This document shows positions 3 through 47,898 of a stretch of DNA of 64,000 bases, one piece after another (the stretch's first letter is position 1; each line of letters begins with the position of its first letter). The notes below the pieces were generated by a model. That model searched no databases and had not been told where the DNA came from. It was given only the letters and a program-made list of their open reading frames with translations. The translations under genes and the position numbers were made by a program. This DNA comes from an uncultured Enterobacterales bacterium (GTDB taxonomy: Bacteria; Pseudomonadota; Gammaproteobacteria; Enterobacterales; CALYQQ01): contig CALYQQ010000008.1 in NCBI GenBank assembly GCA_945288535.1, forward strand, positions 62,001 to 126,000, given 5' to 3'.

Positions 3-1940
3 TGGTATCGTTTCCTTGGTGTTGAGCCGGCGGTGATGATTGGGCATAGTTTGGGTGAATATGTTGCCGCATGTATTGCTGGTGTATTTTCATTAGAAGA
101 TGCACTTAAGCTGATAATTAAACGTGGTGCACTATTGGCCAACACCGCACCGGGAACGATGTTGGCAGTCAAACAATCAGCGGAAACGATAAGCGAACAA
201 GCTGCTTTGTTAGGTGTAGATATCGCTGTTGTTAATGACGCAGGAAGCTGTGTCATTTCCGGTGCTGTATCGGCAATTGCCTCTTTGCAGGCAAGTTTAA
301 GTACTCAGGGGGTGTCTTGCTATCCGGTTAAGGTTTCACACGCATTTCATTCGCGTTTATTGGATCCCGTGTTGGCAGAGTTTAAAGGCACACTACAAGA
401 GATTACTTTCAACACACCATCGTTGCCGTTTATTTCTAATTTAACCGGTCAACTGGCAACAGCGGACCAGGTTTGTCAGCCCGAATATTGGATACAGCAT
501 TTACGACATACAGTGCAATATGATGACGGCTTGAGTACATTGCTTGAGCAATGCGCTAACAATAATTGGGTATTGCTGGAAGTAGGGCCGCGTCAAATAT
601 TGAGCACTTTGGCATTACGGCATCCGGCATTGGGGAATACGGCCGTTATCGTCTCTTCGCCACGTAATGCTATAGATGCAAAGCAGGTTACTCAGATGCT
701 ATGGCACTCCATTGGTGCACTGTATATGTCTGGGGTTGATATCAACCAGACTCGTTTCTGGCGGTGTACAAAGCAGGCATCTTTGTCTTTGCCTGCCTAT
801 CCTTTTGCATCTCAGCGGTATTGGTTTGGTGTGGTAAATTCACCTACTCATCTGCAGATAGTACAAACGGACGCTGTCGTCGGACATGAATCAGATATGC
901 AACAACAGGTTGCGATGTTGTTTAAAGAGATTTTGGGTTATGAGACGGTCGATCTACAGCGTGGATTTTTTGAGCTAGGCGGTGATTCACTAAGTGCATT
1001 GCAATTGATCGGGCGCCTACAAAAACTGACGGGTGTACGGGTTGAGCTTATGACTATGGAGCAGCCGAGTGTCACGCAAATAGCGAAAGCGTTGGAGGAC
1101 CATGCAGCAGGGCAATACCAAAGTGAAAACTGTTTGGTAAAACTGTGTAACGGTGAAGATAAGAACCAATTACCCCTTGTATTGATCCATCCTATTGGTG
1201 GTGATATCTATTTTTACCGAGAGTTGGCTCAACGTTTAGGGAGTCGTAGAACGATTTATGCCATACGCTCGCCACTACTTAATGATGCGGATACTTTTGC
1301 TTTTGAGAGTATCGAGCAGCTTGCAGGTGAGTATTTAGCTTTGCTGAAACCACATCTTGAGCGAAGTGAGTGTTGTCTGGCAGGTTCTTCATTCGGGGGT
1401 ATTATCGCGTTTGAAATGGCACGACAATACCAAGAAAGGAAACATGTATCTCTGCCAGTAGTAATGATTGATTCCCCTGGTCAGGGAAATCTGCCTGAGG
1501 CCATGACAGAAGAGCAAATTTTGGACTATCTTCTTTCATTTGGCCTAATATCATTGGATATTGATTGGGATGTATGGAAAACAATGAGCAATGTAGTAGA
1601 TAAAATCAATTATTTATCTGAGATCACTAAAGGCACTGTAGCAGAAACAATTTTTTCCTCAACGTTCTTACCTCGTTATTTGCGTACCTGGCAACGGCAT
1701 AATGTTATGATGCAGCATTATTTCCCGAATAAGTTGATAAGTGATGTATTGTTTTTCTCTCATCGTGAGATTATTGCAGATTTTCCTGAAAATCAAAGTA
1801 AATTTTGGTATCCGTGGGTACAGGGACGCTTTGAAGAACAGATAGTTCCGGGAAATCACTTGACGATGAACGCGGGAGAGGGCGCGGCAATGATGGCGAA
1901 AAAAATGACTTCATGGTTAGGGCAGTGGACACAGGCTTGA
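3..1940 (+). CDS. Type I polyketide synthase, C-terminal part (AT-ACP-thioesterase)
   Basis: The gene is open at the left edge; the frame reads through from base 3, so the GTG at 33 is not a real start. Numbering residues from that GTG, an acyltransferase domain occupies about 1-265, with the GHSLGE nucleophile Ser at 6 and a HAFH signature at 103-106, which in known AT domains goes with malonyl-CoA. The usual post-AT linker (PAYPF) follows near 255. An acyl carrier protein spans about 290-355, with phosphopantetheine Ser319 in GGDSL. A thioesterase spans about 380-630, with GSSFG nucleophile Ser453, Asp480 and His609. No ketoreductase or dehydratase lies between AT and ACP. This is therefore a terminal module that loads an extender and releases the chain by hydrolysis or cyclisation. 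The upstream ketosynthase must lie outside the window. The product is unknown. Confidence 0.93.
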   Translation, partial: WYRFLGVEPAVMIGHSLGEYVAACIAGVFSLEDALKLIIKRGALLANTAPGTMLAVKQSAETISEQAALLGVDIAVVNDAGSCVISGAVSAIASLQASLSTQGVSCYPVKVSHAFHSRLLDPVLAEFKGTLQEITFNTPSLPFISNLTGQLATADQVCQPEYWIQHLRHTVQYDDGLSTLLEQCANNNWVLLEVGPRQILSTLALRHPALGNTAVIVSSPRNAIDAKQVTQMLWHSIGALYMSGVDINQTRFWRCTKQASLSLPAYPFASQRYWFGVVNSPTHLQIVQTDAVVGHESDMQQQVAMLFKEILGYETVDLQRGFFELGGDSLSALQLIGRLQKLTGVRVELMTMEQPSVTQIAKALEDHAAGQYQSENCLVKLCNGEDKNQLPLVLIHPIGGDIYFYRELAQRLGSRRTIYAIRSPLLNDADTFAFESIEQLAGEYLALLKPHLERSECCLAGSSFGGIIAFEMARQYQERKHVSLPVVMIDSPGQGNLPEAMTEEQILDYLLSFGLISLDIDWDVWKTMSNVVDKINYLSEITKGTVAETIFSSTFLPRYLRTWQRHNVMMQHYFPNKLISDVLFFSHREIIADFPENQSKFWYPWVQGRFEEQIVPGNHLTMNAGEGAAMMAKKMTSWLGQWTQA

Positions 1941-1975
1941 TAGCATAGAGTATTTATTGTATTAGCGGATCAATA

Positions 1976-1998
1976 AGCGGGATAAAAACTATCCCGCT
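1976..1998 (+). terminator. Hairpin after the PKS gene
   Basis: A perfect 9-bp stem AGCGGGATA/TATCCCGCT with loop AAAAC begins 35 bases after the PKS stop. No T-run follows immediately, so it may be a weak terminator or an mRNA 3' stabiliser. Confidence 0.5.
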
Positions 1999-2091
1999 GA
2001 AGTTATGATAATATTAATTTTTTGATAATCCCACGTATATTTATTTTGATGCTGTAGGAAATATTACTTTTATAAAAGTAGAGGAAGCCGT

Positions 2092-2826
2092 ATGTGGTTT
2101 GTGCAAATAAAAAGGAGTTACACTAGAAATGATGAGCATATTTTATTTTGTTTTCCTTATGCAGCCGGAAATGCTGAGATATTCGAACCATTTTCTCGCT
2201 ATGTCAATAGCAATACGTCAGTGTATGCTATGCAACTCCCTGGCAATGGGCGCCGTTTTTCAGAAGCGTTAAGTAATGATGTCTGCAAAATTTTACATCA
2301 GGTTGAACAAGAAGCGGCGAGTCTTATGTCGGGAAAAACTTACTCATTTCTAGGTCATAGTAATGGTGGATTATTCGCCTTTGAATTGGCGAGTAGATTT
2401 ATCGCTCAGAATAAACCACCAGTGCGAATTTTTATCGCGGCGGAAGCGCCACCTCATATTATGGATTTTAAAGATGACCCGATACATTCAGATGATAATG
2501 AAATGGTTAAGGTATTGCGTCGTTATGGTGGAACACGAGCAGATATTTTAGATAACGTTGATTTCAGAAGTTTATTTCTTCCTATTATACGTAACGAGCT
2601 GTCAATTAATTTTCATATGAAACGTGCATTAAAAGATAAAACAATCGATTATCCTTTGGTATTGATCCACGGCAGCTGTGATAATACTATTTCAAAGCAG
2701 GATATGGCAGCTTGGGCACGCTATACCAGCGCGCATATTATTCTACATACTGTGTCATCGGATCATTTTTTTATCAACCATAAGCCGAAAGATGTGGCAA
2801 ATATCATCAATCAAATGCTGGCGTGA
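2092..2826 (+). CDS. Type II thioesterase of PKS/NRPS pathway
   Basis: This 244-residue alpha/beta hydrolase matches the stand-alone GrsT/RifR-type thioesterases that strip mis-primed or stalled acyl groups from carrier proteins. Visible landmarks are FCFPYAAGNA near the N-terminus (oxyanion loop), the nucleophile elbow GHSNGG with Ser90, Asp197 in HGSCDN, and His225 in SDHFF. Length is typical for the family. A strong GAGGAAG ribosome-binding site stands in front of the ATG. It lies 151 bases downstream of the PKS gene on the same strand and almost certainly edits that synthase. The cytoplasmic location fits the absence of a signal peptide. Confidence 0.92.
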   Translation: MWFVQIKRSYTRNDEHILFCFPYAAGNAEIFEPFSRYVNSNTSVYAMQLPGNGRRFSEALSNDVCKILHQVEQEAASLMSGKTYSFLGHSNGGLFAFELASRFIAQNKPPVRIFIAAEAPPHIMDFKDDPIHSDDNEMVKVLRRYGGTRADILDNVDFRSLFLPIIRNELSINFHMKRALKDKTIDYPLVLIHGSCDNTISKQDMAAWARYTSAHIILHTVSSDHFFINHKPKDVANIINQMLA

Positions 2827-4433
2827 GTGAGGTCCATCCTGAATGGATTTATCCTATAAATAAAGTTTTGGATTTTCATTCATCTGACCTAGGATTATTA
2901 TAAGTTAGTTGCAGTGATGCACATAACGCTACTTTTAATGAAGATTACCAATAAACGTTAATTGAGTATATTTATGCAATTATTACTGGCGTACTCATTA
3001 AAGTTAGCAAAATAGATTCTTTAGATAATTTTTAAAATGGCTGTAGCTATGATAAGACACTATTCTGGAATAGCTAATGCATTAAAAAAGTTTTCTCATT
3101 TAATTTAGTAATCTTTATAAAGTTAACTCACTCTTCATACATATAATATTTATCTTTCTATGTCAGTTCGTTTTCTCTACAATTTTCTGATTAACTTTAT
3201 TTTATAGCTTTACTTTTTTCAATATTATTATATAACGAGTGATAATAAATATAATACTTTATTTTTTAGGCAGATAAAAAAAGAAGAAAATAGAAAGGAT
3301 AAACCAAACTAAAATATATAATATACTTTCATTAAAATGTATGAAAAGAATCCATATATAATCAATGAAAATTAAGATTATCCATTAGAAGAATATCTCT
3401 AATATGATAAAAATTACTATCCAAAAGTAAAATTATTTTAATTAATCTAGTTATTTTTTATTTAAATAAATTTGCTATAAAATAATTAGTAAAAGTATAA
3501 GGTTATTTTATCTGACATAATTATAACAAAATTTATAAAAATTAATTAATGTTAAGTTAGATAGTTATACTTTCGATGAGAAAACATCAAGAATAATAAT
3601 AATCTTTATAGTACCAATAGGATTATGACTCTATTAAAAGTATTTCCTATAGAAATTCCTCTAATAAATAAAATAATTGATGATATAGCAAAAAATGATC
3701 TTAGCTATATAAGTACGCATATCCATAAAAATTACCATACTTTATCAAAGAAATTTAAATCACATAGCAACGATAACTTATTTGTATTACTTTCCGATTT
3801 TAGACATATTTTATCCCTAACGTATTCATATAATTATCTATAACAAGCGCTATATTTTTTCTGCAGGGTAGAGCAATTGTAATATAGAAATACGGATGTA
3901 ACCGATTAATAAATTTATAAAAAACCGGAGGTGTGATTTATTTAATGACTAAAACTAACCTGCAGTTTTTTTACGTAATCGTGTTTTTCCCACCCACAAA
4001 GGAAGAGCCTCATTCTTAAAACACCGTTTTATATTAATTGTATCGTTTGATAGCTATTTTTATGATTATATTGATATTATTCTAAATAAATTTTCTCAGA
4101 ACACATGGAATCGCCAGTTAATGTCTTATCACTTGCACGCTTTCGCACTAAACTTATGTCTAATAGAATACGCTCCTTAAGTTATTTTCATTTTAATCGA
4201 ACATTACAAAAAAACTTGCGGATAACCAGCAAAGATTAATCGTAATATTTTACTTAAAATGCTAGTTAAAATAATACAGTGCGGACTTATCTTTTGAACA
4301 AGTAAATTGTTTTAATATCAATGGAAGTATAAGGTATTAACGAGAGTTTGCATTACAAATGACTACATCTTGATAAGACTTAATTAGATTTTATGCCTTA
4401 TTAGACTTGCGAAGAAAGCGTTAAGAATAAAAA
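2827..4433. other. 1.6-kb AT-rich stretch between thioesterase and tRNA-Phe
   Basis: Very AT-rich, with stop codons in all frames apart from one 72-codon ORF (annotated separately). A small inverted repeat TAGCTAT/ATAGCTA lies at 3044-3076 and a weak hairpin TCCAT/ATGGA just after the thioesterase stop. I see no transposase, integrase or recognisable gene remnant. Confidence 0.6.
3625..3843 (+). CDS. Small hypothetical protein (72 aa), doubtful
   Basis: An isolated 72-codon ORF in otherwise non-coding AT-rich DNA. The product would be basic and Ile/Lys/Ser/Asn-rich, without a signal peptide or membrane helix, and I recognise no family. An AGG lies six bases ahead of the ATG, so translation is possible. 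It may be a real small island gene, the remnant of a longer gene, or chance. Being on the PKS side of the tRNA it would belong to the putative island. Confidence 0.25.
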   Translation: MTLLKVFPIEIPLINKIIDDIAKNDLSYISTHIHKNYHTLSKKFKSHSNDNLFVLLSDFRHILSLTYSYNYL

Positions 4434-4509
4434 TGGTGCCCGGACTCGGAATCGAACCAAGGACACGGGGATTTTCAATCCCCTGCTCTACCGACTGAGC
4501 TATCCGGGC
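4434..4509 (-). tRNA. pheV: tRNA-Phe (anticodon GAA)
   Basis: The reverse complement folds as a 76-nt tRNA beginning GCCCGGATAGCTCAG and ending in a genomically encoded CCA. The anticodon loop TTGAAAA sits in a five-pair GGGGA/TCCCC stem, and the T-arm contains GGTTCGATTCC. As far as I can recall it is identical to E. coli tRNA-Phe. In E. coli pheV lies beyond mltC, and pheV is a well-known insertion point for pathogenicity islands. The 3' end here points toward the polyketide genes. The symbol is given by position only. Confidence 0.97.
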
Positions 4510-4549: not shown

Positions 4550-5159
4550 TCACTTTTTTAGTGAATGATTAAAATAGTGACATTGTTGATCATTAAATAT
4601 ACATTTAATATATTACTGGAAGCCGTGCTTAGAATAAACTCATTGCAATATTATAGTTAAGTATGCCTTTCCTAACTAAAGACATCTTGTTTACGCTTTT
4701 TATTTATTACACGTCAATTATACTAAACTGAGTAAATAAGGAAATGGTTATTAGGTTAGATGAAATAATATCGTTTTAATAATAAATAGATTTTTCTAAA
4801 TAAAAAGAAAATCGTTTTTAGCTTATAATAATGATAATTGTTGTAACTATTTTATATTATAGATTATTAGCATAATTATAATTGACTTATACAATAACAT
4901 TTTTTGTGCTATATGATTTTAATAAAAATTTATTAACTATAGATTATCTTTTTATTAAAGATATATTGCGTAATATTTTTTAAGCGTATTTTTCATTCAT
5001 CTATGATAAGAACTCATTTTTAATGACCTAATAAAATTTTTTCAGAATATTATTATCTATAATATGACAATATGTTTAATATAATTATTTTTCTTATGTC
5101 ATAAAAAAGAATTAATTTTTTATGACAATTCCGCATTGTTAAAATGCAATTATCTACAT
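4550..5159. other. AT-rich upstream region of the GH3 gene
   Basis: About 600 bases with no ORF of note. I see no defined operator. It presumably carries the promoter of the downstream glycoside hydrolase. Confidence 0.5.
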
Positions 5160-5174
5160 GGAGAGTATGACTAC

Positions 5175-7550
5175 ATGTTAATGAGGATAATTAAAGTAAG
5201 TTGTACAATTACTATTATATTTATGGTGCTAAATGCTTTTTCTGCAATTACATTAACAGATGAAACATCTATTGATTTTATTTTACATGAACTAACGCCG
5301 GCAGAAAAAGCTAAATTAGTTGTTGGTTCTGGGGTAAATAATGCTGTATTAGTACAAGGTGGTGCGGGTGCTACTTCAGCTATACCACGTTTAGGTATTC
5401 CACAGATCGTTATGGCTGATGGCCCAGCGGGTGTCAAGCTTGGTGGTGAACCTATAAATGTTATACCACGTTATGCTACAGCTTTTCCAATTCCTACAGC
5501 ACTAGCTGCCAGTTGGAATGAAAATTTAATTTTTCAAGTTGCTTCTGTGATGGGCGATGAAGCAAAAAGTTACGGTATTGATCTCCTATTAGCACCGGTA
5601 CTTAATATTCAACGAGATCCACGTAATGGTCGTAATTTTCAATCTTTTTCCGAAGATCCCTACTTATCAGGAAAATTAAGTGCTGCTTTTGTTAATGGTA
5701 TTCAGTCCCGTGGTGTAGGGGCAACTTTAAAGCATTTTGTTGCTTATAATCAACAAACGTACCGTTACTCTATTGATCAACAAATTGATGAACGCGCATT
5801 ACGTGAGATTTATTTAGCCGGTTTTGAATATGCTGTAAAAAAGAGTAAGCCTTGGGCTGTTATGAGTGCTTATCCTTCGATAAATGGTACGCTTGTTTCG
5901 CAGAATAGCCGCTTTCTTAAAACAATTTTACGCGAGGAGTGGGGATACACTGGCGTGGTGATGTCATCGTGGTATGGTATTAATGATCCACTAAAAGCAT
6001 TGCCCGCGGGAAATGATCTGATCATGCCAGGTGATCCGTTTAAGAAAAATCAGCATCGATCAATAGAAAAAAGTATTTTAGATGGATTAGAACAGGGATT
6101 TTTACAAGAAAAGCATATTGATGAAAATATTAGAGCTATTCTTGGTATGGTAATAAAAACGCCTATTTTCAAAGGTAACCAGCCAGAAGGTAATCCACCG
6201 CTAGATAAGCATATCAGATATGCACATAATGCTGCGGTTGAAAGTATGGTATTGTTAAAAAATAATTATCAAACGCTTCCTATCCTCATGAATAATAAAA
6301 TTGCATTATTTGGTCATAATATTCAGCATATTTATATTGGGGGGGATGGTAGTACTAAAGTAAATATTAAGCCTGGTCGAGAAAGTCATTTGATTGAGAA
6401 TATGGCTAAAGTAGGGTATAGGTTAATTAGTCAGGTTAATGATGTCCCGCTGCAAGAAGGAATTTCATCACATAATATTATTGATGCAGCTAATCAGTCA
6501 GATATCGCGATCATTTCTATTGGTCGCAATTCATCAGAAGAGGTGGACCGATATTCGATGGAGTTGACACCACAAGAATTGCAACTTATTAAAAATGTGT
6601 CTGGCATTTATCATGCGCAAAATAAAAAGGTGATCGTCTTATTAAATATTGGTACGCCAATTGAAATGGTAACTTGGGATATGTATGCCGATGCAATACT
6701 TTTGTTATGGCAGCCAGGTCAAGAAGCTGGAAGTGCTTTAGCCGATATTTTATCTGGTAAAGAAAGCCCTTCAGGTAAATTACCAATGACATTTCCGAAA
6801 TATTATCGGGATGTCCCTTCTTACGGAAACTTTCCTGGCTATAGCAATAAAGTGAATTATGGTGAAGGAATTTATGTTGGTTACCGTTTTTATGATAGTA
6901 AATATATCCAACCAATGTATCCATTTGGGCATGGTTTATCTTATAGTACATTTACTTATTCAAATACTCGATTAAGCCAACCTATATTTAATCTTGATAA
7001 AGATGAAAGTATTTCTATCTATGTTGATGTTCAAAATAATGGTTCTATAACAGCTAAAGAAATTATTCAACTTTATGTTCATGATAAAGCCTCTAGAATT
7101 GACAGGCCTTTACAAGAGCTTAAAGGATTTAAAAAAATAGAATTAATGCCCAATGAGAAACAGACTATTTCATTTAATATTGATAAAAGCGCCTTATCTT
7201 TTTTTGATGTAACGTTGGATCGCTGGATTGTCGAACCTGGGCGTTTTACACTTCGTATTGGTAGTTCATCACGTGATATTCGTCATGAAATTGAATTCAA
7301 AGCGATTAGTGAAAAAGCCCCAGCCATTACATTAAAAACATGCTGGACGGATATTCAACAATACAGTAAAGCTGCCATGATTGTTGCCAAATATATTGGT
7401 ACTGACGAGGTGAATAGTGGGATAGAAGGTGAATTAACATTAAGTGATAAAATGGACATATATTTTTCGCGTCAACCTACTTTAAAAGATAATAAAGTCG
7501 TGCAACACGAGTTGCTGCATAAATTATTAAGTGAATTGAATGATCTTTAA
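5175..7550 (+). CDS. Secreted glycoside hydrolase family 3 protein lacking the usual nucleophile Asp
   Basis: The ATG at 5175 is chosen over an upstream TTG at 5136 because GGAGAG stands nine bases before it and the product then starts with a clean signal peptide (MLMRIIKV, hydrophobic stretch, NAFSA). The mature protein has the GH3 TIM-barrel (MADGPAG, NGRNFQSFSEDP, LKHFVAYN), the alpha/beta sandwich domain (VESMVLLKNN, SSEEVDR with the likely acid/base Glu, SGKLPMTFP) and a C-terminal fibronectin-III-like domain (PFGHGLSYSTF). At the nucleophile site the family reads M-S/T-D-W; here residues 263-266 are MSSW, with Ser encoded by TCG at 5967-5969. The remaining substrate-site residues look intact. 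It would act in the periplasm or outside the cell, on beta-glucosides if active. An extra C-terminal tail of about 80 residues has no family I know. Confidence 0.88.
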   Translation: MLMRIIKVSCTITIIFMVLNAFSAITLTDETSIDFILHELTPAEKAKLVVGSGVNNAVLVQGGAGATSAIPRLGIPQIVMADGPAGVKLGGEPINVIPRYATAFPIPTALAASWNENLIFQVASVMGDEAKSYGIDLLLAPVLNIQRDPRNGRNFQSFSEDPYLSGKLSAAFVNGIQSRGVGATLKHFVAYNQQTYRYSIDQQIDERALREIYLAGFEYAVKKSKPWAVMSAYPSINGTLVSQNSRFLKTILREEWGYTGVVMSSWYGINDPLKALPAGNDLIMPGDPFKKNQHRSIEKSILDGLEQGFLQEKHIDENIRAILGMVIKTPIFKGNQPEGNPPLDKHIRYAHNAAVESMVLLKNNYQTLPILMNNKIALFGHNIQHIYIGGDGSTKVNIKPGRESHLIENMAKVGYRLISQVNDVPLQEGISSHNIIDAANQSDIAIISIGRNSSEEVDRYSMELTPQELQLIKNVSGIYHAQNKKVIVLLNIGTPIEMVTWDMYADAILLLWQPGQEAGSALADILSGKESPSGKLPMTFPKYYRDVPSYGNFPGYSNKVNYGEGIYVGYRFYDSKYIQPMYPFGHGLSYSTFTYSNTRLSQPIFNLDKDESISIYVDVQNNGSITAKEIIQLYVHDKASRIDRPLQELKGFKKIELMPNEKQTISFNIDKSALSFFDVTLDRWIVEPGRFTLRIGSSSRDIRHEIEFKAISEKAPAITLKTCWTDIQQYSKAAMIVAKYIGTDEVNSGIEGELTLSDKMDIYFSRQPTLKDNKVVQHELLHKLLSELNDL

Positions 7551-7716: not shown

Positions 7717-8796
7717 CTAGCGATATTGACTTTTACGATAAACGCTATCAACTTTATATAAATAGCGGCGAGCTTCTGAAGAGGGATGATTATTGATCAA
7801 TTTTTTGTAGAGTTGCTCGGGTGTCAATTGATTGATCAGTTGCATAGCTTTAGTTCTATCATCAGAAAAGACACGTAATACGCTACCAGCACCGGCATTA
7901 TAAGCGGTGATTGTTGCATAATGTTTTAATTTAGGATGATTGATATCAGCAAGATAATGTGTTTGCAGCAGTGCTAAATAGGCCGTACCTGTATCAATAT
8001 TATTTGCTGGATCAAATAAATAATTTCGGCTAGGTTGACCAGAGCGTCCTTGCATAGCAAAAACATCACGTCCAGCCGTATGACTGACAACTTGCATTAA
8101 GCCCAACGCGTCAGCATGACTGACTGCATAAGGATTAAAACTGGATTCAATTTCCATAATCGCCAGAATTAGACGTTCATCTACATTATATTTTTTCGCT
8201 GCTTTACGGATATACGGCAAATATTTATGTGCACGTTTATCAACATGATTTGCAACGAGCTGAATATTCACCCCCCAAATCGTCTTTAATCCTGATTGGC
8301 GTTTTTGTAGATGTGTTTCTAAAAGGTAATCGGCAAAGCGTGCAGCTCGCCATTCCCATCGAATAGGCTGATTGTCCTGATCGACAACTTGGCCAAATAA
8401 AAAAGGCTCTTGGCTAATGAATATATCATTGCGTGCTGAATAAAGATCCACTGAGCCCGGATCATCACCCATTAATAATGTTGAAATTATTGTTTGGCGT
8501 AAATGTTGTCGTGTATCTACTTGCTCTATTGTTTCAACTGTAATGGTACCATTATCAAAATTAATATGACTACGTGTTTTATAGTTGTCAGTATACTTTA
8601 CATAATCTTTTGTTCCTGCAATGAGCACTTCCTGGCGACCCCAGATAGTTTCGATATTATTAGCAAACTGACCAATCAAAATATCAAAAGCATTAACATC
8701 TTTTTCTATAACAATTGGCGGAGATTTTTGTTTTGGTGTATTTGTACAGGCCGTTAATATCAGAGAAACTGCAAGTAATAGTAAGAATCTTTTCAT
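7717..8796 (-). CDS. mltC: Membrane-bound lytic murein transglycosylase C
   Basis: A 359-residue outer-membrane lipoprotein that cleaves the MurNAc-GlcNAc bond of peptidoglycan with formation of 1,6-anhydroMurNAc. The lipobox LTAC puts the acylated Cys at residue 17. The C-terminal half is the SLT lysozyme-like domain, with ESSFNP carrying catalytic Glu217, then GLMQV and the TAYNAG motif. Length equals E. coli MltC. It is the last gene of the minus-strand set mutY-yggX-mltC, the same order as in E. coli. Confidence 0.97.
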
Positions 8797-8832
8797 TATA
8801 CTGTATGAACTTCCAACATAACTAATAATTAT

Positions 8833-9105
8833 TTATTTGTTTTGGGGAACGTAGCCTTCAATATGAACGTCTTTACCTTCAAAAAGAAATTTAAGCATTT
8901 CCTCTTCCAACAGTTGACGGTGTTGTACATCCATCATATTTAACTTGTGTTCATTAATTAGCATTGTTTGTTTATTCATCCATAATGACCATGCTTCTTT
9001 TGATATTTCATGATAAATCCGTTGTCCAATTTCGCCGGGATAAAGCTGAAAATCCAAACCTTCACTGTCTTTCTTTAAAAAATGGCAATAAATAATTCTA
9101 CTCAT
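8833..9105 (-). CDS. yggX: Fe(2+)-trafficking protein YggX
   Basis: A small cytosolic protein linked to iron-sulfur cluster protection under oxidative stress. The ATG at 9105 is preferred to an in-frame TTG two codons earlier because the product then begins MSRIIYCHF like its homologues (Cys7), with GAGAG upstream. The family block [14 protein letters not shown] and the C-terminal [13 protein letters not shown] are intact; length is 90 residues, family about 91. It lies directly downstream of mutY, an Fe-S glycosylase, as in E. coli. Confidence 0.96.
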
Positions 9106-9146
9106 AATCAACTCTCAATTGCATAACATTTAATTTATTATACCTT

Positions 9147-10196
9147 TTAATCAATAAAATGCTTAAGTTGTTTCAATAGATTCTTAACGGGGGCAGCTAA
9201 TCCTATTGATGGTGGTGCATATAAATTGTACCAAAGGCCATTATTGGTTTCCGTTATTTTTATTGGTTTTTTCAGCATAAGCCGTATTGGTATAATATCT
9301 AAATGGAAATGACTAAATGTATGTCGAAATGCCGATAATTGTTGGTGGTTTGCAGTAATATTATAGTTATTTAACCATTGTGAAAGTAAGGCTTCATTAT
9401 CCACTTGTGGAAAACAAAATAAACCACCCCAAAGACCAGAGGTTGGACGTTGCTGTAGCCAGACAGTTTCATTGTATTGTAATAAGATAAACCACGTTGT
9501 TTTTTCAGGTAATCTCTTTTTAGGTTTTTTACCAGGATAGTCAGACCAATTGTTTTTGCTATAAGCAAGACATAATTTATTTAGAGGACATAAGTCACAT
9601 TTAGGTTTAGTGCGAGTACAAATCAATGCACCAATATCCATCATAGCTTGATTAAATTGTGCGACCTCTTGCTCAGGCGTGACGTGTTGGCTTAATTGCC
9701 ATAGCTGATCTTCCACCTGTTTTTTCCCAGGCCAGCCCGCAATATTATAACAACGTGCTAAAACCCGTTTAACATTACCATCAAGAATGGGATAAGGTTG
9801 GTTAAGTGATAACGATAAAATAGCACCGGCGGTGGAACGCCCAATACCTGGTAATGCGTTAATATGACTAAATGTTGTTGGGAACTGTCCATCAAACTGG
9901 CTGGCTATTTGTTTTGCAGCACTATGTAAGTTACGGGCTCTGGCATAATATCCCAACCCAGTCCAAAGATGTAAAACATCATCTAATGATCCATTCGCGA
10001 GATCAGTAATTGTAGGAAAGCGTTGTATAAAACGTTGAAAATAAGGAATAACTGTAGCAACTTGTGTTTGTTGTAACATGACTTCAGAAAGCCAAACATG
10101 ATAAGGTGTTTTTTCTTTTTGCCAAGGAAGATCTTTTCGACCGTATTGATGATACCAGACAAGTACCATCTGAGAAAATTGTTTATATGATGTCAT
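9147..10196 (-). CDS. mutY: A/G-specific adenine DNA glycosylase
   Basis: Removes adenine mispaired with 8-oxoguanine or guanine. The catalytic domain shows Glu38 in SEVMLQQTQ, the helix-hairpin-helix [10 protein letters not shown] and catalytic Asp139 in LDGNVKR. The 4Fe-4S ligands are Cys193, Cys200, Cys203 and Cys209 (C-X6-C-X2-C-X5-C). The C-terminal domain resembling MutT, which reads 8-oxoG, carries the [10 protein letters not shown] segment. 349 residues matches the family. It heads the mutY-yggX-mltC group and is divergent from trmB. Confidence 0.97.
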
Positions 10197-10513
10197 CGTT
10201 AATAATAAGCCAAGGTAACTAAAAGATAAGCAATATTCGTTTGTTTATCTATTGATAAGATTATTTTCTATAAGTATTGCTATACATAAAAAGTGTGATA
10301 GATCCCATCATATTGTTCAATTTATGTAAACTTAAACTTGCTCAACACATATTTCTTTACATAATACGTAGTTTACCTTATGGGATGTATACTTATGATA
10401 CGAATGCTAGGTATTAAGCGAATTTAGTAATAAAAATTCGTGAGTTAGTGTTAAACTAACTTTTTAATAAAATAATCTACATAATTCCGGAAAATGTTCA
10501 GGTAGCGCTAACA
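10197..10513. other. Divergent promoter region mutY/trmB
   Basis: 317 AT-rich bases between divergent genes; must contain both promoters. I cannot single out a convincing -35/-10 pair. Confidence 0.5.
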
Positions 10514-11239
10514 ATGACCAAAAAAAGTGTAATAACCGTAGAATTTGACGAGCAAGGTAAAGCTTTACGTAGTATTCGTAGTTTTGTAAGGCGTCAGGGG
10601 CGCTTAACTAAAGGCCAGCAAATGGCCATGGAAAATTATTGGCCACAAATGGGCGTAGAGTTTTCTAATGATTTTATTGATTTTGAAAAGCTATTTGGTC
10701 GCTCTTCCGCGGTTGTCTTAGAGATTGGGTTTGGTATGGGAGCCTCTTTAGTTGAGATGGCTACACATTACCCAGAGAATGATTATTTCGGAATCGAAGT
10801 GCATTTACCGGGCGTTGGTGCCTGTTTAGCGCAAGCACATGAAAATAATTGCCCTAATTTACGTGTTATGTGCCATGATGCGGTCGAAGTCTTAGAGCAC
10901 ATGATCCCTGATGAAAGCCTTGATCGTGTACAGCTCTTTTTCCCTGATCCTTGGCATAAAGCACGACATCATAAACGCCGTATTGTTCAAGTCCCTTTTG
11001 CCCAGTTGATTCAGCAAAAATTGAAAACAGGGGGAATTTTTCATATGGCTACTGACTGGCAAAATTATGCTGAACATATGCTAGCAATAATGGATTCTAT
11101 TGATGGTTATCGTAATTTAGCAGCAAATAATTTTTATGTCGAACGACCAGCGTTCCGACCTCTTACTAAATTTGAACAGCGAGGGCATCGGCTCGGGCAT
11201 GGTGTTTGGGATTTAATGTTTGAAAAAATAGAGAAATAG
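10514..11239 (+). CDS. trmB: tRNA (guanine-N7)-methyltransferase
   Basis: Makes m7G at position 46 in the tRNA variable loop using SAM. The SAM-binding motif I is [11 protein letters not shown] (about 68-80); the family signatures [15 protein letters not shown] (about 143-155) and the C-terminal TKFEQRG are present. At 241 residues it is normal length. It lies alone on the plus strand between mutY and hemW; the E. coli neighbours yggL, yggN, ansB and yggM are absent. Confidence 0.97.
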
Positions 11240-11280
11240 GCTAGTTAATAGCCTATTTCATATCATAATTATTATGATAT
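11234..11280 (+). terminator. Double hairpin terminating trmB and hemW
   Basis: AAATAGGCTA/TAGCCTATTT (11234-11258) overlaps the trmB stop. It is followed by a second perfect inverted repeat ATATCATAAT-T-ATTATGATAT (11260-11280) just before the hemW stop on the other strand. Probably acts in both directions. Confidence 0.65.
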
Positions 11281-11287
11281 TCATGTG

Positions 11288-12418
11288 TTAAAGAAATAAT
11301 TCAAGCAATGAATTTAAAAATAATTTACCTTTGTTTGTAATTTGCCAATCTGTAGAGGTCTCCACAATATAGCCTTGCGAAATAGCCTGATCGAGAGCGG
11401 GTCGAATACTATCTTCATTTAGATTTGTTAAGTCGCTAAAGGCTTTTCGCGGGGTTGGCTCCAGTAAACGAAAGCGATTCATAAAGAATTCAAATGGACG
11501 TTCTTCTTTACTCACCCAATGTTGTTGATCTAAATAACGCCCAGCCATATACCCTTTAGGATGACGCGTTTTCATCATTCTAATGATACGTCTATCGGTA
11601 AGTGTTATTTTACTATGAGCACCACAACCTATTGCGAGATAGTCACCAAATCGCCAATAGTTAAGGTTATGTTGACATTGATAGCCTGGTTTTGCGTATG
11701 CAGATATTTCATATTGTTGATAACCTGCTGATCTGAGCAGTTCATCGCCTTCTTGATAGATTTCCCATAGTATATCTTCATCAGGTAATTTAGGGGGCTT
11801 TGATCCAAATAGTGTATTTGGTTCAATAGTTAGTTGATACCAGGATAGATGAGGTGGGGCTAAAGCAATAGCCTGCCTAAGATCTGCTAAGGCGTGAGAT
11901 AATGTTTGCTCAGGTAAGCCGTGCATTAAATCGAGATTAAAACTTGCTAAGTTTAACTTGCTGCAAATAGCTGCAGCATATTTGGCTTGTTTTGCATCAT
12001 GAATGCGACCAAGTTGTTGTAGCTTTTGATCATCAAAACTTTGGATACCAATAGAAATGCGCGTGATACCGGCTTGCTGGTATTGCTGAAAACGTGATGT
12101 CTCTACTGTACCAGGGTTAGCTTCCATGGTTATTTCAGCCTTTGGCGATAAATTGATTCGATCTTTTATCCCCTTTAATAACTGATATATAGCCGTAGCG
12201 CTAAATAAGCTAGGTGTTCCTCCGCCAATGAATAATGTTAATACTTGTCTGTCACCGATCAGTTGCTGATCTTGACTAAGATCATTTAGTAAATGTTGGA
12301 TATAGTCATCTTGGGGTATTTCAGCTTTACGCGTATGTGAATTAAAATCGCAATAAGGGCATTTTTGTATACACCAAGGGATATGAATATATAAACTAAG
12401 AGGCGGTAGTTTAGGCAT
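11288..12418 (-). CDS. hemW: Radical SAM heme chaperone HemW
   Basis: 376-residue radical SAM protein of the HemN-like family; known HemW proteins bind heme and deliver it to respiratory enzymes rather than oxidising coproporphyrinogen. The 4Fe-4S motif is C-X3-C-X2-C (CIQKCPYC, near residue 16), followed by the GGGTPS SAM-binding motif and a C-terminal HemN domain. It overlaps the end of rdgB by eight bases, indicating translational coupling in the yggS-proC-yggT-yggU-rdgB-hemW string, the same order as in E. coli. Confidence 0.95.
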
Positions 12419-41799: not shown

Positions 41800-42450
41800 T
41801 CACTTACATGACAGATACGCTTGTAATCCTTTGTCTCGTAATAAGCAAGAAGGGCATTTACCACAACCACCTTTTACACCATAATAGCAAGTATGGGTAT
41901 GTTGACGAATATAATCCAAATAACCTAATTGATCGGCAAGTGCCCAGGTTTCTGCCTTTGTCAAATACATTAAAGGCGTCTTAAGATTAAACGTATAATC
42001 CATTGCCAGATTTATACTTACATTCATTGATTTGATGAATATATCTCGGCAGTCAGGGTAACCACTAAAATCAGTCTCACATACACCTAAAATAATATCT
42101 GAGATTTGTTGGGACTTTGCATAGATCGCTGCCATTAAAATAAATAAAGCATTACGACCATCAACAAATGTATTTGGATAGTGGTTGTTATCACCTTGAT
42201 TAATGGTTTGATCTTTATCCATTAATGCATTGTTGGTAATTTGGCCAAGTGAAGAAATATCTAACACATGCTGTTTAATAGCTAAGTCTTTGGCAATCCA
42301 TTCAGCTTGACGAAGTTCAATGTCATGACGTTGTCCATAAACAAATGTGATAGCTTCAACATGTTCAGAACCATATTCATTAATTGCTTGTAGTAGACAG
42401 GTTGTTGAATCTTGTCCACCAGAAAAAATAACCAATGCTTTCTTTGTCAT
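41800..42450 (-). CDS. queC: 7-cyano-7-deazaguanine synthase
   Basis: ATP-dependent conversion of 7-carboxy-7-deazaguanine to preQ0 in queuosine biosynthesis. P-loop-type SGGQDSTTC at residues 10-18, [14 protein letters not shown] in the centre and four zinc Cys at 188, 196, 199 and 202. 216 residues, somewhat shorter than E. coli QueC (231) because the C-terminus ends soon after the zinc site. queD, queE and queF are not in the window. Confidence 0.95.
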
Positions 42451-43257
42451 TCTATTTATCCTTTAGTTAAGTTAGCACCTTCTTATTTGCTAACATAAGA
42501 TTTACATCACCTTAGTAAAAGAAGATTAACCTAGGTAGGAGGTCAATAATTACAACGCGACCTATAAGTAATTTAAATAAAGCATAACATAATTTCATCC
42601 TTATCAATTAAGTAGATATTATGACGTATATGATATTTTATCGTTCCGTTATCTGAAGTAAAAAATGAATGAAATAAATATATTCACTTAATGGGGATGA
42701 TAGTATGTTTTTCACGTTAAGTTGCTCTATATTGGATAGGATAAATAAATCTATTGCATATCTTAATTGTGGGGATAACACTATGATAATTAAGTTATTA
42801 TTCACAATAAAAAGGATTGTTGATTGCCCTCTATATGATTAAATTATTGGTTGGGAATGTTGATTAAAACCTATGTTGAAAAACACCTCTTTTCTATTTT
42901 TTACATTGTTTTGTATTAACTATAACAATTAGTGATATGGCTAAGTTACTTTTTTATGTTGTTTGATCCAATGGTTAGCGGATTTGTTCTATTAAGCGGA
43001 GAAGGTCCTATTGACATATTATAAAAAAGACTAAACGGACCATAAGATAAATTGAAAAATCGTATCTTGATTTAACTGTTTTTAGGTCATCAGATAATTA
43101 AATGCCATATCACACGCTCAATATAGAACTTACTATTAATAAAACACAGGTTAAGCAAATTTGCATCAATTAATTGTAATCTTATGCTCATTCTGATCCA
43201 TTGAATTTAACGAAGGCACTTCAAATTAATAATGGTTACTTACTAAAGATACAATAA
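42451..43257. other. 0.8-kb gap between argP and queC
   Basis: AT-rich; no ORF of 60 codons. In E. coli argO stands next to argP; no remnant of it is visible here. Confidence 0.5.
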
Positions 43258-44151
43258 CTATTCTTGTTGTAGATGATGACGTGCATAACTAACCAATGCA
43301 TCAGTTACTTTACGCATAATATTACTTTCTGGTGCAAAGCGATGCCAATATAACATTCGACGTTGATGTAAACCCGGTGTCAAATTAATGAGTTCACCAC
43401 TACTTAGTTCTTTTGCAATTTGTAGATGGGGTATCATACAGCAGGTAGTTCCTTGCTTAGCTAACTGAACATAAGCTTCTGATGAATTAACAATATGGCA
43501 TGGCACACTGCCTGGCGGTAAATCAAAGTTTTGCTGCAAAAATAACTGATGCATATCATCAATATAATCAAAGGCAACAGCGGGTGCTTTTAATAGTGCA
43601 GAACGAGTAACACCTTTAGGAAAATAACGTGCTGCAAATGCAGGTGAGGCAATAAATAAATAATCTAAGGCGCCAAGCGGGTCAACTAAACAACCTGGTA
43701 ATGGCTGCGATTGACTACTTACTACACCAACCGCTTCACCACGGCGTAAACGTTCAAGAGTGCGCGTTTCATCTTCAACTTGTAAATTTAATCGAATTGG
43801 CAGATCCGTTAACACGTTTTTTAATGCAGGTAACAGCCAAGTCGCCAACGTATCGGCATTAACTGCAATTGATAATAATAATGGCGTACCAGCACTTTGA
43901 TTATTACCAAGCCACTCTTTTTCTAGCATTTCAACCTGATGTAATAAACCGAGCAACTTTTGTCCTTGTTCTGTGGTTTTGGGTGGAACAGTTCGAACTA
44001 AAAGGGGCTGGCCAAATTGTATTTCAAGTTGTTTTATACGTTGTGATACTGCGGATTGAGTAATACACAGTTTTTGTGCGGCTCGTTCAAAACCACGTTC
44101 ACGGATGACGGTATCAAGAGCCTGGAGAGCCCGGTAGTCGAGACGTTTCAT
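43258..44151 (-). CDS. argP: LysR-family regulator ArgP (IciA)
   Basis: 297 residues. N-terminal helix-turn-helix ([23 protein letters not shown], about 20-42) and the LysR substrate-binding domain. N-terminus [22 protein letters not shown] is the ArgP signature. In E. coli it responds to arginine and lysine and activates argO, dapB, lysP and others. Divergent from rpiA as in E. coli; its classic target argO is absent from this locus. Confidence 0.95.
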
Positions 44152-44505
44152 TAAGTTAATTCCTGTTGTTATCGTCGCATCTGGCTTATAATTATCGGAA
44201 ATTTGTCGAAAATCGTCATAATGATTACTGCGTTATTTGATACTTTATTTTTATAGTATGTTGATTGCTCGACGCAAATGGCGCACTTGACATATAATAA
44301 CACTATGCCATTACATCCAATACGAAAGAATATAAAAGTTTTCACCTAAATGATGCAACTTTATTATTTTATTCATAAATCTTTATAGAGCATTTTCTAG
44401 CGGAGCGCAAATAATCTTATTTATATGAAAAATATATTTTATAGTTAATCAAATTATTAAATTAATTGGTTGAAATGGCGATAAATACAACATAGGGTAA
44501 CATAG
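44152..44505. promoter_or_regulatory. Divergent argP/rpiA regulatory region
   Basis: 354 bases between divergent genes; must hold both promoters. GGG lies eight bases before the rpiA ATG. No operator identified. Confidence 0.5.
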
Positions 44506-45165
44506 ATGATGTCACAAGATGAGCTAAAAAAATCAGTAGGTTGGGCTGCACTAAACTATGTAAAGCCTGATACGATTGTTGGTGTTGGAACCGGAACAAC
44601 GGCATTACATTTTATTGATGCTTTAGCAACAATGAAAAATCGTATTATTGGTGCGGTTTCCAGCTCTGAGGCGTCTACGATTAAACTAAAGCAATTGGGT
44701 ATTAATGTTTTTGATTGTAATGAAGTCGATGATCTAGAAATTTATGTTGATGGAGCTGATGAAATTAACCACAATATGCAAATGATTAAAGGTGGTGGGG
44801 CAGCATTAACAAGAGAAAAAATTATTGCAGCTATAGCACGTAAATTTATTTGTATTGTCGATGAATCAAAATGTGTTAACGTTTTAGGTCGGTTTCCCTT
44901 GCCAGTTGAAGTTATTCCTATGGCACGATCTTATGTGGGGCGCGAACTTGTAAAATTAGGTGGGCAACCTGTTTATCGGCAAGGTGTTGTCACCGATAAT
45001 GGTAATATTATTATTGATGTTCGTGGATTATCTATTGTTAATCCAATTGAGCTTGAACATAAGATCAATAATATTGCAGGGGTTGTCAGCGTTGGCTTGT
45101 TTGCAGATAGAGCTGCTAATGTTGCACTCGTTGGTACCGCTAATGGTGTAAAAGTATTGGAATAA
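44506..45165 (+). CDS. rpiA: Ribose-5-phosphate isomerase A
   Basis: Interconverts ribose 5-phosphate and ribulose 5-phosphate. 219 residues; [14 protein letters not shown] (phosphate loop), [23 protein letters not shown] and [12 protein letters not shown] are conserved. There are two adjacent ATGs; the first has better spacing to GGG. It links the ula pathway product and the pentose phosphate pathway. Confidence 0.98.
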
Positions 45166-45193
45166 CTTTTATCAGCTATCCTATGCAAGATGT

Positions 45194-45229
45194 AAACCTG
45201 TCTGTCCTGTAGATAAAGACAGGTTTTTC
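45194..45229 (+). terminator. Terminator of rpiA
   Basis: AAACCTGTCT/AGACAGGTTT, ten-bp stem, followed by TTCT. Confidence 0.85.
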
Positions 45230-45695
45230 TATTTTATCAACGTAATCTTAATTGCTTTTAAATATTCTTCTGTGAATATAAAAAACCTTAGTGTGTAGCG
45301 TGGTAATATAGAATATTGACTCCTATTGGTTAGCAAATTAATGCTAATTTAGTTAGTAATTATTGATCCTATTATTTTGATGGTTATACATTCGAATTAA
45401 TTTTTCTCTATTTTGATACGTGTTAATTTATCTATTTAAATGATTTTTAAAAGTATTATTTTCATGGTATCAGTTTTAGATGAAAATCTCGTAATCAATC
45501 CCGTAATATAGTTTTCTTGAATATATTGTCATTTATTTATTTTTTGTTATGTTGATTACAATAATATTTAATTTCGCTTGATATTAACTTTAAGTTGGTT
45601 GTTTTCATTTATAAAATAGCTTACTAGGCAAATAAATAATCAAACAACCTAATTACAGTATAAATAGCAAGTTAGTTGATGATAGGATCAAATAA
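45230..45695. other. Upstream region of serA
   Basis: 466 AT-rich bases without an ORF; presumably the serA promoter and leader. In E. coli serA is controlled by Lrp; I cannot identify sites by eye. Confidence 0.45.
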
Positions 45696-46928
45696 ATGCA
45701 TAAATATTCTCAAGATAAAAGCACAATAAAATTTCTTTTATTGGAAGGTGTTCACAAAAGTGCGCTCAATAATTTACACCAGGCTGGTTATACGAACATA
45801 GAGTATTATAAAGGTGCTTTATCGAAAGAAGAGTTAAAGAACGCAATCAGTGATGCTAGTTTTGTTGGTATCCGGTCTCGTACACAATTAACGGAAGATA
45901 TTTTTGCATGTGCAAAGAATCTAAAAGCCGTTGGGTGTTTTTGTATAGGAACGAATCAAGTCGAATTACCGGCAGCAACGAAACGTGGTATTCCTGTATT
46001 TAATGCTCCCTTTTCAAATACGCGTTCTGTCGCTGAAATGGTATTAGGTGAAACTTTACTTTTATTAAGAAAGATCCCATTAGTCAATGCTAAGGCTCAT
46101 CGTGGGGAATGGTTTAAATTAGCTGATGGCTGTTTTGAAGCACGAGGAAAAGTATTAGGTATTATCGGATATGGTCATATTGGAACTCAACTAGGTGTTT
46201 TGGCTGAGGCTATTGGTATGAAAGTCTATTTTTATGATATTGAAAATAAACTTCCATTAGGTAATGCTCAACAACTAGCCACTTTATCTGAATTATTGCG
46301 TATCAGCGATGTGGTGAGTTTACATGTGCCTGAAACAACAAGTACGCAAAATATGATTCGATCACATGAAATAAATATGATGAAATCAGGAGCTATTTTA
46401 ATTAATGCGTCTCGTGGATCAGTTGTTGATATTGATGCGTTAAGTGAAGCATTAGATAGCAAACATTTATCCGGTGCAGCAATTGACGTATTTCCAATAG
46501 AACCAGCAACTAATAATGATCCTTTTGAATCGCCCCTATGTAAATACGATAATGTACTTTTAACACCACATATTGGTGGGTCAACATTAGAAGCGCAAGA
46601 AAACATAGGTATTGAGGTCACAGGTAAGTTGATTAAATACTCTGATAATGGTTCAACACTTTCAGCAGTAAACTTCCCAGAAGTTTCATTGCCAACCCCA
46701 TTAGAAAATGTGAGTCGGTTATTACATATTCATCATAATCGTCCAGGTGTATTAAATCAAATTAACCAAATATTTGCGCAAGAAGGGATTAACATTGCTG
46801 CCCAGTATCTCCAAACGACTGCTGACATTGGTTATGTTGTTATTGATGTGGAAACAGATCGTGCTGAAGAGGCATTAAAACATATGAAGAGCATTAAAGA
46901 TACGATTAGAGCGCGTTTATTATTCTAA
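45696..46928 (+). CDS. serA: D-3-phosphoglycerate dehydrogenase
   Basis: First step of serine synthesis from 3-phosphoglycerate, NAD-linked and feedback-inhibited by serine. 410 residues, as in E. coli. Rossmann motif LGIIGYGHIGTQLG (about 151-164), catalytic Arg/Glu/His with HIGGSTLEAQENIG, and a C-terminal ACT domain from about 340 (HIHHNRPGVLNQI), the serine-binding site. Confidence 0.98.
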   Translation: MHKYSQDKSTIKFLLLEGVHKSALNNLHQAGYTNIEYYKGALSKEELKNAISDASFVGIRSRTQLTEDIFACAKNLKAVGCFCIGTNQVELPAATKRGIPVFNAPFSNTRSVAEMVLGETLLLLRKIPLVNAKAHRGEWFKLADGCFEARGKVLGIIGYGHIGTQLGVLAEAIGMKVYFYDIENKLPLGNAQQLATLSELLRISDVVSLHVPETTSTQNMIRSHEINMMKSGAILINASRGSVVDIDALSEALDSKHLSGAAIDVFPIEPATNNDPFESPLCKYDNVLLTPHIGGSTLEAQENIGIEVTGKLIKYSDNGSTLSAVNFPEVSLPTPLENVSRLLHIHHNRPGVLNQINQIFAQEGINIAAQYLQTTADIGYVVIDVETDRAEEALKHMKSIKDTIRARLLF

Positions 46929-46954
46929 TTGTTTGTAATAAATTACCCCTTTTT

Positions 46955-46985
46955 AGAACGGTAATTATGAGTGTGATTACCGTTT
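46955..46985 (+). terminator. Terminator of serA
   Basis: Nine-bp stem AACGGTAAT/ATTACCGTT with ten-base loop, followed by TTG. Lies between convergent serA and ygfA. Confidence 0.75.
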
Positions 46986-47031
46986 TGTAGATAATTTACA
47001 GTAAAGAGAGGTAACCACGAGTAATATGAAA

Positions 47032-47637
47032 TTATTCAAAGCGCCAGATTTTTGATGGCGTAATTACTTCAGGTAAAGGAATATCCCACGAATGGGGCGC
47101 TAAATATTCAACTTGCTGACAATCATGTGCCAAACCAATTGGCCATAACTTTTTCTTTTTCCAATGGTGTAAGGTTCTATCATAATACCCTCCACCCATA
47201 CCTAAACGATTACCGTGGTTATCGAAAGCGACAAGAGGAACAAATAAAATATCTAATTGCGTTAAAGGTAATATTTTGTTTATATCAAGTTTAGGGTGTT
47301 GCAAACCTAAAGCACCAGATACTAGTGTTGAATCAGGTTGATAACGTAGAAATAACAAATTTCCTGGACTAAAAGGATGAATTAGTGGCAGATAAACGCA
47401 TTTATTTTGTTGCCATAACCAGTGAATTAAAGGGGTTGTGTCTAATTCTCCATCAATAGACATAAAAATAGCAATGTGCTTTGCTGTACGGATTTTGGGA
47501 TGTTGACTTGCTAATAAATAGGCTGAGTTAGCTGCTTTTTGTTGTTGATAAGGTGTTAACGTACGTCGATTTTGACGCATCGCTTGCCTGATTATCGTTG
47601 AATTGCTTTTCTCTTCGAAGGTAAGGGCTGTGGCCAT
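47032..47637 (-). CDS. ygfA: 5-formyltetrahydrofolate cyclo-ligase family protein
   Basis: 201 residues. The MTHFS fold is recognisable by FVPLVAFDNHGNRLGMGGGYYDRTL and by the N-terminal basic substrate region. Converts 5-formyl-THF to 5,10-methenyl-THF; in E. coli also linked to persistence. It follows 6S RNA on the same strand, the classic ssrS-ygfA arrangement in which both can be co-transcribed. Confidence 0.96.
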   Translation of the reverse strand: MATALTFEEKSNSTIIRQAMRQNRRTLTPYQQQKAANSAYLLASQHPKIRTAKHIAIFMSIDGELDTTPLIHWLWQQNKCVYLPLIHPFSPGNLLFLRYQPDSTLVSGALGLQHPKLDINKILPLTQLDILFVPLVAFDNHGNRLGMGGGYYDRTLHHWKKKKLWPIGLAHDCQQVEYLAPHSWDIPLPEVITPSKIWRFE

Positions 47638-47640
47638 TAC

Positions 47641-47823
47641 TAAGATCTCCAGGATGCCGTTATCAGTTATAACCCTTGAACCCTAGGCTCAAGGTGAACG
47701 CAACGCCACAACTTTTAGGCTTCCTGGAAAACCAGGTGTGCTCACCAGTTGGAGATCATCACATTCTTATTGTTTGAAATATCGGCTCAGGGGACTCACC
47801 AATAACAAACATCCCAGAGAAAA
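47641..47823 (-). ncRNA. ssrS: 6S RNA
   Basis: About 183 nt on the minus strand, close in length to E. coli 6S RNA (184). The 5' closing strand TTTTCTCTGGGATG pairs with CATCCTGGAGATC at the 3' end, and the highly conserved CCCCTGAGCCGATATTTC, CAAGAATGTG, GGTGAGCA, GAAGCCT and GGGTTCAAGGGTTA segments are present. It sequesters sigma-70 RNA polymerase in stationary phase by mimicking an open promoter. Flanked by zapA and ygfA as in E. coli. End points are estimated by alignment from memory, plus or minus a few bases. Confidence 0.95.
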
Positions 47824-47898
47824 CTGTAATAATATCAAGCTACCATTATAACTAACTGTTTATAGTATACACTAGTTTTATTAGAATAGAATAATTAT

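Follow-up and report, generated by a model that had tools for sequence, protein, structure and literature searches.

What is the polyketide synthase (PKS) gene that enters this window at its left edge, and did it arrive as an island by way of the tRNA-Phe gene near which it ends? The window is a stretch of 64,000 nucleotides from an uncultured Enterobacterales bacterium (assembly GCA_945288535.1, contig CALYQQ010000008.1, hereafter C8; the window is C8:62001-126000, so that a window position equals the C8 position minus 62000). The draft genome comprises 2.52 Mb in 29 contigs and is 96.6% complete. A sequence-only reading of the window had proposed a probable genomic island carrying a PKS whose product it could not name. 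We find that the PKS is the tail of a six-gene operon which we consider, with a probability of about 0.88, to be a horizontally acquired althiomycin-type operon, alb1-alb6, in a low-G+C Enterobacterales lineage.

The leftward extension that the sequence-only reading had suggested as a check, run on C8:2001-62000, uncovers an operon of nonribosomal peptide synthetase (NRPS), PKS and accessory genes at C8:37477-64826, which amounts to 27 kb and six co-directional genes. Its gene content and order, with the parts that lie in the window, are as follows.

C8:37477-38736, plus strand: alb1, MFS exporter (Pfam)
C8:38834-39790, plus strand: alb2, AurF-family protein (AurF-type N-oxygenase; Pfam)
C8:39806-40717, plus strand: alb3, methyltransferase (Pfam)
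C8:40744-41985 and 42015-47882, plus strand: alb4, NRPS, in two frames (Pfam)
C8:47885-63940, plus strand: alb5, NRPS-PKS (Pfam), with 14 kb of the gene beyond the window's left edge
window 3..1940, plus strand: 3' end of alb5 (NRPS-PKS), a 645-aa open frame in which the Pfam domains Acyl_transf_1, PP-binding and Thioesterase follow one another
window ~15-593, ~903-1094 and ~1173-1904, plus strand: acyltransferase (AT; its end), acyl carrier protein (ACP) and thioesterase (TE) domains of alb5 (Pfam)
window 2092..2826 (C8:64092-64826), plus strand: alb6, type II (editing) thioesterase, the last operon gene, 244 aa (Pfam Thioesterase, 1.1e-31)

The AT-ACP-TE tail and the type II thioesterase that had been recognised from the window are both borne out by the Pfam matches. 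The former had been described as a terminal PKS module; it is indeed the last module, but just one of the six that make up an NRPS-PKS assembly line. Pfam detects five condensation-type, three adenylation (A) and three carrier domains and a ketosynthase (KS) within the first 4500 residues of Alb5, and the complete line has two A domains in Alb4 and three in Alb5, two DxxxxDxxS motifs, which we take to be the heterocyclisation (Cy) motif, and the KS, AT, ACP and TE domains. All five A domains are present in order, they align with the counterparts extracted from Serratia bockelmannii and Xenorhabdus griffiniae for four of the five, and their pocket stretches are conserved. The motif scan extracted 13 of the 15 A domains expected from the three genomes, and these align in the order expected; the remaining two, each the second of its Alb5 (one from Serratia, one from Xenorhabdus), probably escaped a motif that was too narrow, since the whole Alb5 proteins align end to end (5371 columns against S. 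bockelmannii and 5370 against X. griffiniae). The motifs of the carrier, KS, AT and TE domains are retained, as are the tailoring enzymes. The operon matches the althiomycin machinery gene for gene, which supersedes the earlier view of its product; that product would be predictable as althiomycin or a close relative, and an anonymous PKS fragment becomes a named antibiotic pathway. In a literature search we recognised no title on an althiomycin operon in this bacterium, which is not a claim of absence.

Evidence on the origin of the operon comes first from its boundaries. DNA homology to the Serratia and Xenorhabdus loci (E 1e-5, within C8:20001-72000) runs from 37515, at the start of alb1, to 64824, at the end of alb6, and there is none outside. 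Amino acid identity to S. bockelmannii is 87.5, 90.3 and 86.8% for Alb1, Alb2 and Alb3, 75.0% for the first 412 residues of Alb4 and 83.1% for the rest, 80.3% for Alb5 and 84.0% for Alb6; the corresponding values for X. griffiniae are 79.2, 85.5, 87.8, 74.5, 83.1, 80.8 and 84.4%. Against this range of 75-90% for the Serratia alb proteins, the identity of backbone proteins to Serratia is 48-72% (eight proteins from the mltC-hemW stretch and the genes after it, a set that does not include Serratia mltC). The same contrast is seen at the nucleotide level, where the share of synonymous sites that differ from Serratia is 0.48-0.65 for alb but 0.87-1.11 for six genes of the backbone, the latter values being saturated and those above 1 a counting artefact of high divergence and differing G+C. 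The nonsynonymous divergence (dN) of alb genes is 0.06-0.15, while for the same six backbone genes p(nonsynonymous) is 0.16-0.29.

The distribution of alb2 is restricted, with a real alb2 in only one of 394 genomes of the order, that of this bacterium itself, and three other matches at 19-21% identity. An Alb2 tree built from our sequence and 20 of 21 loci (L067, with 189 residues matched, was left out of the tree and the operon survey) places it in a group with those of Serratia, Xenorhabdus and Bartonella (100/99). G+C content at third codon positions (GC3) is 0.32-0.39 in alb genes, 0.244 +/- 0.036 in 55 other genes of the contig and 0.65 in Serratia alb5. Three of those 55 genes likewise exceed 0.31, so GC3 alone is no proof of transfer. 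If the donor was Serratia-like, the G+C content would have been partly ameliorated towards that of the host (43% in this operon versus 55% in that of S. bockelmannii), and the arrival would hence lie long ago. The operon also moved between the Serratia and Xenorhabdus lineages, because its synonymous values between these two (0.11-0.14 for alb3-alb6, 0.40 for alb2 and 0.77 for alb1) are lower than those of two backbone genes (0.85-0.97), its 5' end being more diverged. Taken at the level of sequence comparison, horizontal acquisition of the operon is well supported, and its mode is a matter of inference.

Several observations weigh against parts of this interpretation. Relative to Xenorhabdus, alb genes and backbone are little apart at synonymous sites (0.48-0.69 for alb, 0.72-0.74 for three backbone genes). 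The nonsynonymous contrast holds (alb dN 0.07-0.15 versus p(nonsynonymous) 0.21-0.24), and the argument for transfer relative to Xenorhabdus is thus one from dN and protein identity. Serratia and Xenorhabdus are nearly equidistant from our operon, so that no donor can be named, and the 394 genomes include no second member of this bacterium's family. With respect to the product, the oxidase domain expected in module 2, within Alb4, shows as no more than a weak Nitroreductase match (4.6e-4), below the curated cut-off, as it does in the Serratia protein (8.5e-4), and no althiomycin-specific model is found among the NCBIfam matches listed. Finally, the break in the alb4 frame may mean that this copy makes nothing.

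That break is directly visible in the assembly. The gene is split into frames of 413 and 1955 aa, and relative to Serratia and Xenorhabdus it contains eight extra bases inside the first (Gly) adenylation domain. They belong to a repeat at C8:41966-41986 in which a perfect 8-bp unit occurs 2.6 times in tandem; no other tandem repeat was reported in L010:15000-20000. The break is a defect of this copy and not of its ancestry. The halves of alb4 are otherwise open, as are the other five genes, and dN/dS is ~0.04-0.11 in alb genes, ~0.07 after the break and ~0.08 in alb5 (rough values, with dS near saturation), so that purifying selection has still left its trace on the operon. The open halves, and a dN/dS downstream of the break that resembles the value for alb5, make it probable that any loss is recent. 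With the Gly-loading module broken no althiomycin is expected, and this genome most likely does not support its production. The break may stem from decay, from an assembly error or, as the least likely cause, from a reversible switch. An error of assembly or sequencing, which would leave the operon intact and active, is compatible with the five other open genes, the lack of any other stop in the halves of alb4 and the constrained divergence of every gene; it is nevertheless unlikely, because a perfect 8-bp tandem repeat is a usual outcome of real replication slippage and not of a homopolymer miscall.

The pathway that an unbroken althiomycin-type operon would encode can be proposed by orthology to that of Serratia marcescens Db10. 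Alb4 would load Gly and Cys, the latter being cyclised and oxidised to a thiazole, and Alb5 would add Ser, Cys (cyclised), Gly and one malonyl unit before its TE domain releases the chain. Alb2 is predicted to oxidise the amine to an oxime and Alb3 to perform the O-methylation, while Alb6 would edit misloaded carriers and Alb1 would export althiomycin and protect the producer. The presumed product is a ribosome-inhibiting antibiotic that would act on competing bacteria. Four ACPS-family matches occur in the genome. One of them, 13 kb to the left of alb1 (C8:23734-24516), is an EntD-like enzyme, which scores 93.9 bits, under the NCBIfam EntD cut-off of 169, and is a candidate phosphopantetheinyl transferase (PPTase) for the operon. 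The assembly line might conceivably yield a congener and not althiomycin itself, given that 17-25% of the residues of Alb4 and Alb5 are not shared with the Serratia proteins. We regard this as improbable, however, as the modules and their order are the same, the A domains can be aligned and have their pocket stretches conserved, and the motifs of the carrier, KS, AT and TE domains as well as the tailoring enzymes are kept.

The question of an island concerns the DNA to the right of alb6, which is organised as follows.

window 2827..4433, no strand: AT-rich stretch between alb6 and the tRNA, 24.8% G+C, 1.6 kb
window 4434..4509, minus strand: tRNA-Phe (GAA), 76 nt, 3' end towards the cluster
window 5136..7550, plus strand: GH3 glycosidase between the tRNA and mltC, outside the operon, start codon uncertain
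window 7717..12418: backbone genes mltC, yggX, mutY (minus), trmB (plus) and hemW (minus), named by gene order and by homology with loci of Serratia, Photorhabdus and others

As the sequence-only reading had described, gene-poor, AT-rich DNA reaches up to the 3' end of a tRNA-Phe gene that faces the cluster. Its statement that the backbone soon resumes beyond the tRNA holds from mltC onward, but the GH3 glycosidase gene intervenes. In E. coli, pheV is the tRNA-Phe gene beside mltC, and we presume that the tRNA-Phe of the window is this pheV-like copy; a second, identical 76-nt tRNA-Phe on contig C15 adjoins frames that, judging from their residues, we take to resemble dsbD and crcB. The proposal of a genomic island survives insofar as the cluster looks foreign, being far less diverged from Serratia and Xenorhabdus in its proteins and at nonsynonymous sites than the backbone is and having a raised GC3, but the idea that the 3' end of the tRNA served for attachment finds no support.

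If an integrase-bearing element had inserted the operon at the 3' end of the tRNA and had later lost its integrase and distal repeat, this would account for the position of the operon, which stops 1.6 kb short of a pheV-like tRNA on its 3' side, and for the variability of the DNA beyond the tRNA, which differs among Serratia, Photorhabdus and a further relative, G017, the three in which the frames were read closely. The foreign block might in that case be ~36 kb long, as a sugar phosphotransferase system (PTS) operon left of alb1 shares the raised GC3. Both of the signs proposed as checks failed to appear, however. When the 20 bases that end the tRNA are searched for in the whole draft genome and as many as 3 mismatches are allowed, only the two intact tRNA-Phe genes match, one of them on another contig, and within C8:2001-126000 the best other matches to the tRNA end have 3 mismatches in 14 or 6 in 20 (no shuffles), with no convincing attachment-like repeat. 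Three Phage_integrase matches are found in the genome by a search that reads through stops, none of them on C8 within 50 kb of the tRNA: one at C8:122249 (a 306-aa frame 56 kb to the right of the tRNA, which we would guess to be perhaps xerD), one on C19 and one on C2 (with two stops).

Comparing the two intergenic flanks of the operon with each other gives no exact repeat longer than 10 bp in direct or 11 bp in inverted orientation; chance yields 10-14 bp in 100 simulated direct comparisons. The right flank (window 2827-4433) has no phage or plasmid DNA match, no Rfam match and no integrase match, and the left flank gave nothing in plasmid and E. coli DNA comparisons. Pfam searches of stop-to-stop pieces gave no convincing match in the right flank (its four longest, of ten listed) and nothing in the left (six of ten listed), transposase families not having been searched genome-wide. 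The 60 kb read around the Serratia alb operon contain no tRNA gene, and the tRNA-Phe/mutY region of Serratia is on another contig. Among order-level relatives, ten tRNA-neighbourhood stretches were scanned for tRNAs, and six of these and a further stretch of G017 were compared by protein; they yielded no empty site, being variable and too distant. A weak similarity, 93 bp of 72% identity (window ~4211-4301), is common to the 3' flanks of both tRNA-Phe genes, scoring 44.6 bits against a top value of 40.1 in 100 simulated sequences; if it represents native trailers, the DNA beside the tRNA was never displaced, and if it represents relics of one element, the case for an island gains. On balance we give insertion at the tRNA little credence, and the neighbouring tRNA-Phe is a bystander, at most a marker of a variable locus, which cautions that a cluster beside a tRNA need not be an integrase-borne island. 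With so few repeat copies, it is very unlikely that the 8-bp repeat in alb4 is a phase-variable switch by which slippage toggles a costly assembly line in subpopulations of a small-genome bacterium.

The sugar-PTS operon occupies C8:29195-36142, and those six of its genes that encode at least 150 aa have a GC3 of 0.32-0.39, as high as that of alb. EIIA, the FGGY kinase and GntR are identified by Pfam, and from their residues we take the others to be EIIB, EIIC, an alcohol dehydrogenase, an aldolase and an HPr-like protein. This operon is perhaps foreign too. Elsewhere in the window, 6S RNA (ssrS) is located at 47642-47823 on the minus strand (113.8 bits, Rfam).

A scan of named genomes with Alb2 returned 21 loci, the nearest being those of S. 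bockelmannii (90%), X. griffiniae (86%) and Bartonella queenslandensis (86%), followed by Photorhabdus and Zooshikella (65-68%) and by Streptomyces, Myxococcus, Legionella and others (47-59%). The locus of B. queenslandensis AUST/NH15 (NZ_HE997981.1, L048:1337-4137) is an operon remnant comprising alb1, alb2 with one stop and the first half of alb3, with 83-86% identity to the genome of the window and a G+C content of 45%, versus 37% downstream and 43% upstream; no alb6 match is found in that genome. It reflects either transfer into an alphaproteobacterium or contamination. The operon of X. griffiniae BMMCB, found in this analysis, has all six genes in order with alb4 intact, and its Alb2-Alb6 are 92-97% identical to those of Serratia. 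Just downstream of its alb6 is a 327-aa frame that, from its residues, we take to resemble an IS110-type transposase, possibly a vehicle in the X. griffiniae lineage. In the partial contig of Myxococcus xanthus AM003 the order alb1-alb2-alb3-alb4 is kept and the counterparts of Alb1-3 have 53-58% amino acid identity.

Published althiomycin clusters include one in Xenorhabdus indica KK26.2 (PMC10676414), almA-almF in M. xanthus DK897, whose AlmF has no detectable sequence identity to Alb6 (PMC3445576), and the operon of S. marcescens Db10 (PMC3445576, Gerc et al. 2012). In the latter, alb1 encodes an exporter/resistance protein, alb2 an N-oxygenase, alb3 a methyltransferase, alb4 two NRPS modules, alb5 three NRPS modules, one PKS module and a TE, and alb6 a type II thioesterase; Alb4 and Alb5 have 2376 and 5347 aa, the gap between alb5 and alb6 is 146 bp, and althiomycin requires a separate PPTase. 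Its authors inferred horizontal acquisition, with no obvious mobile-element remnants there. Judged against that published description (sequence identities having been measured against the S. bockelmannii orthologues), our operon is like that of Db10 in its six genes, their order and directions, module number, protein lengths and the alb5-alb6 gap (151 bp here). It is unlike it in that alb4 is out of frame, a tRNA-Phe is adjacent and the EntD-like candidate PPTase is 13 kb off. The hosts of althiomycin operons would thereby gain a 2.5-Mb low-G+C genome, and in the three hosts compared, this bacterium, S. bockelmannii and X. griffiniae, the six-gene unit sits in differing surroundings.

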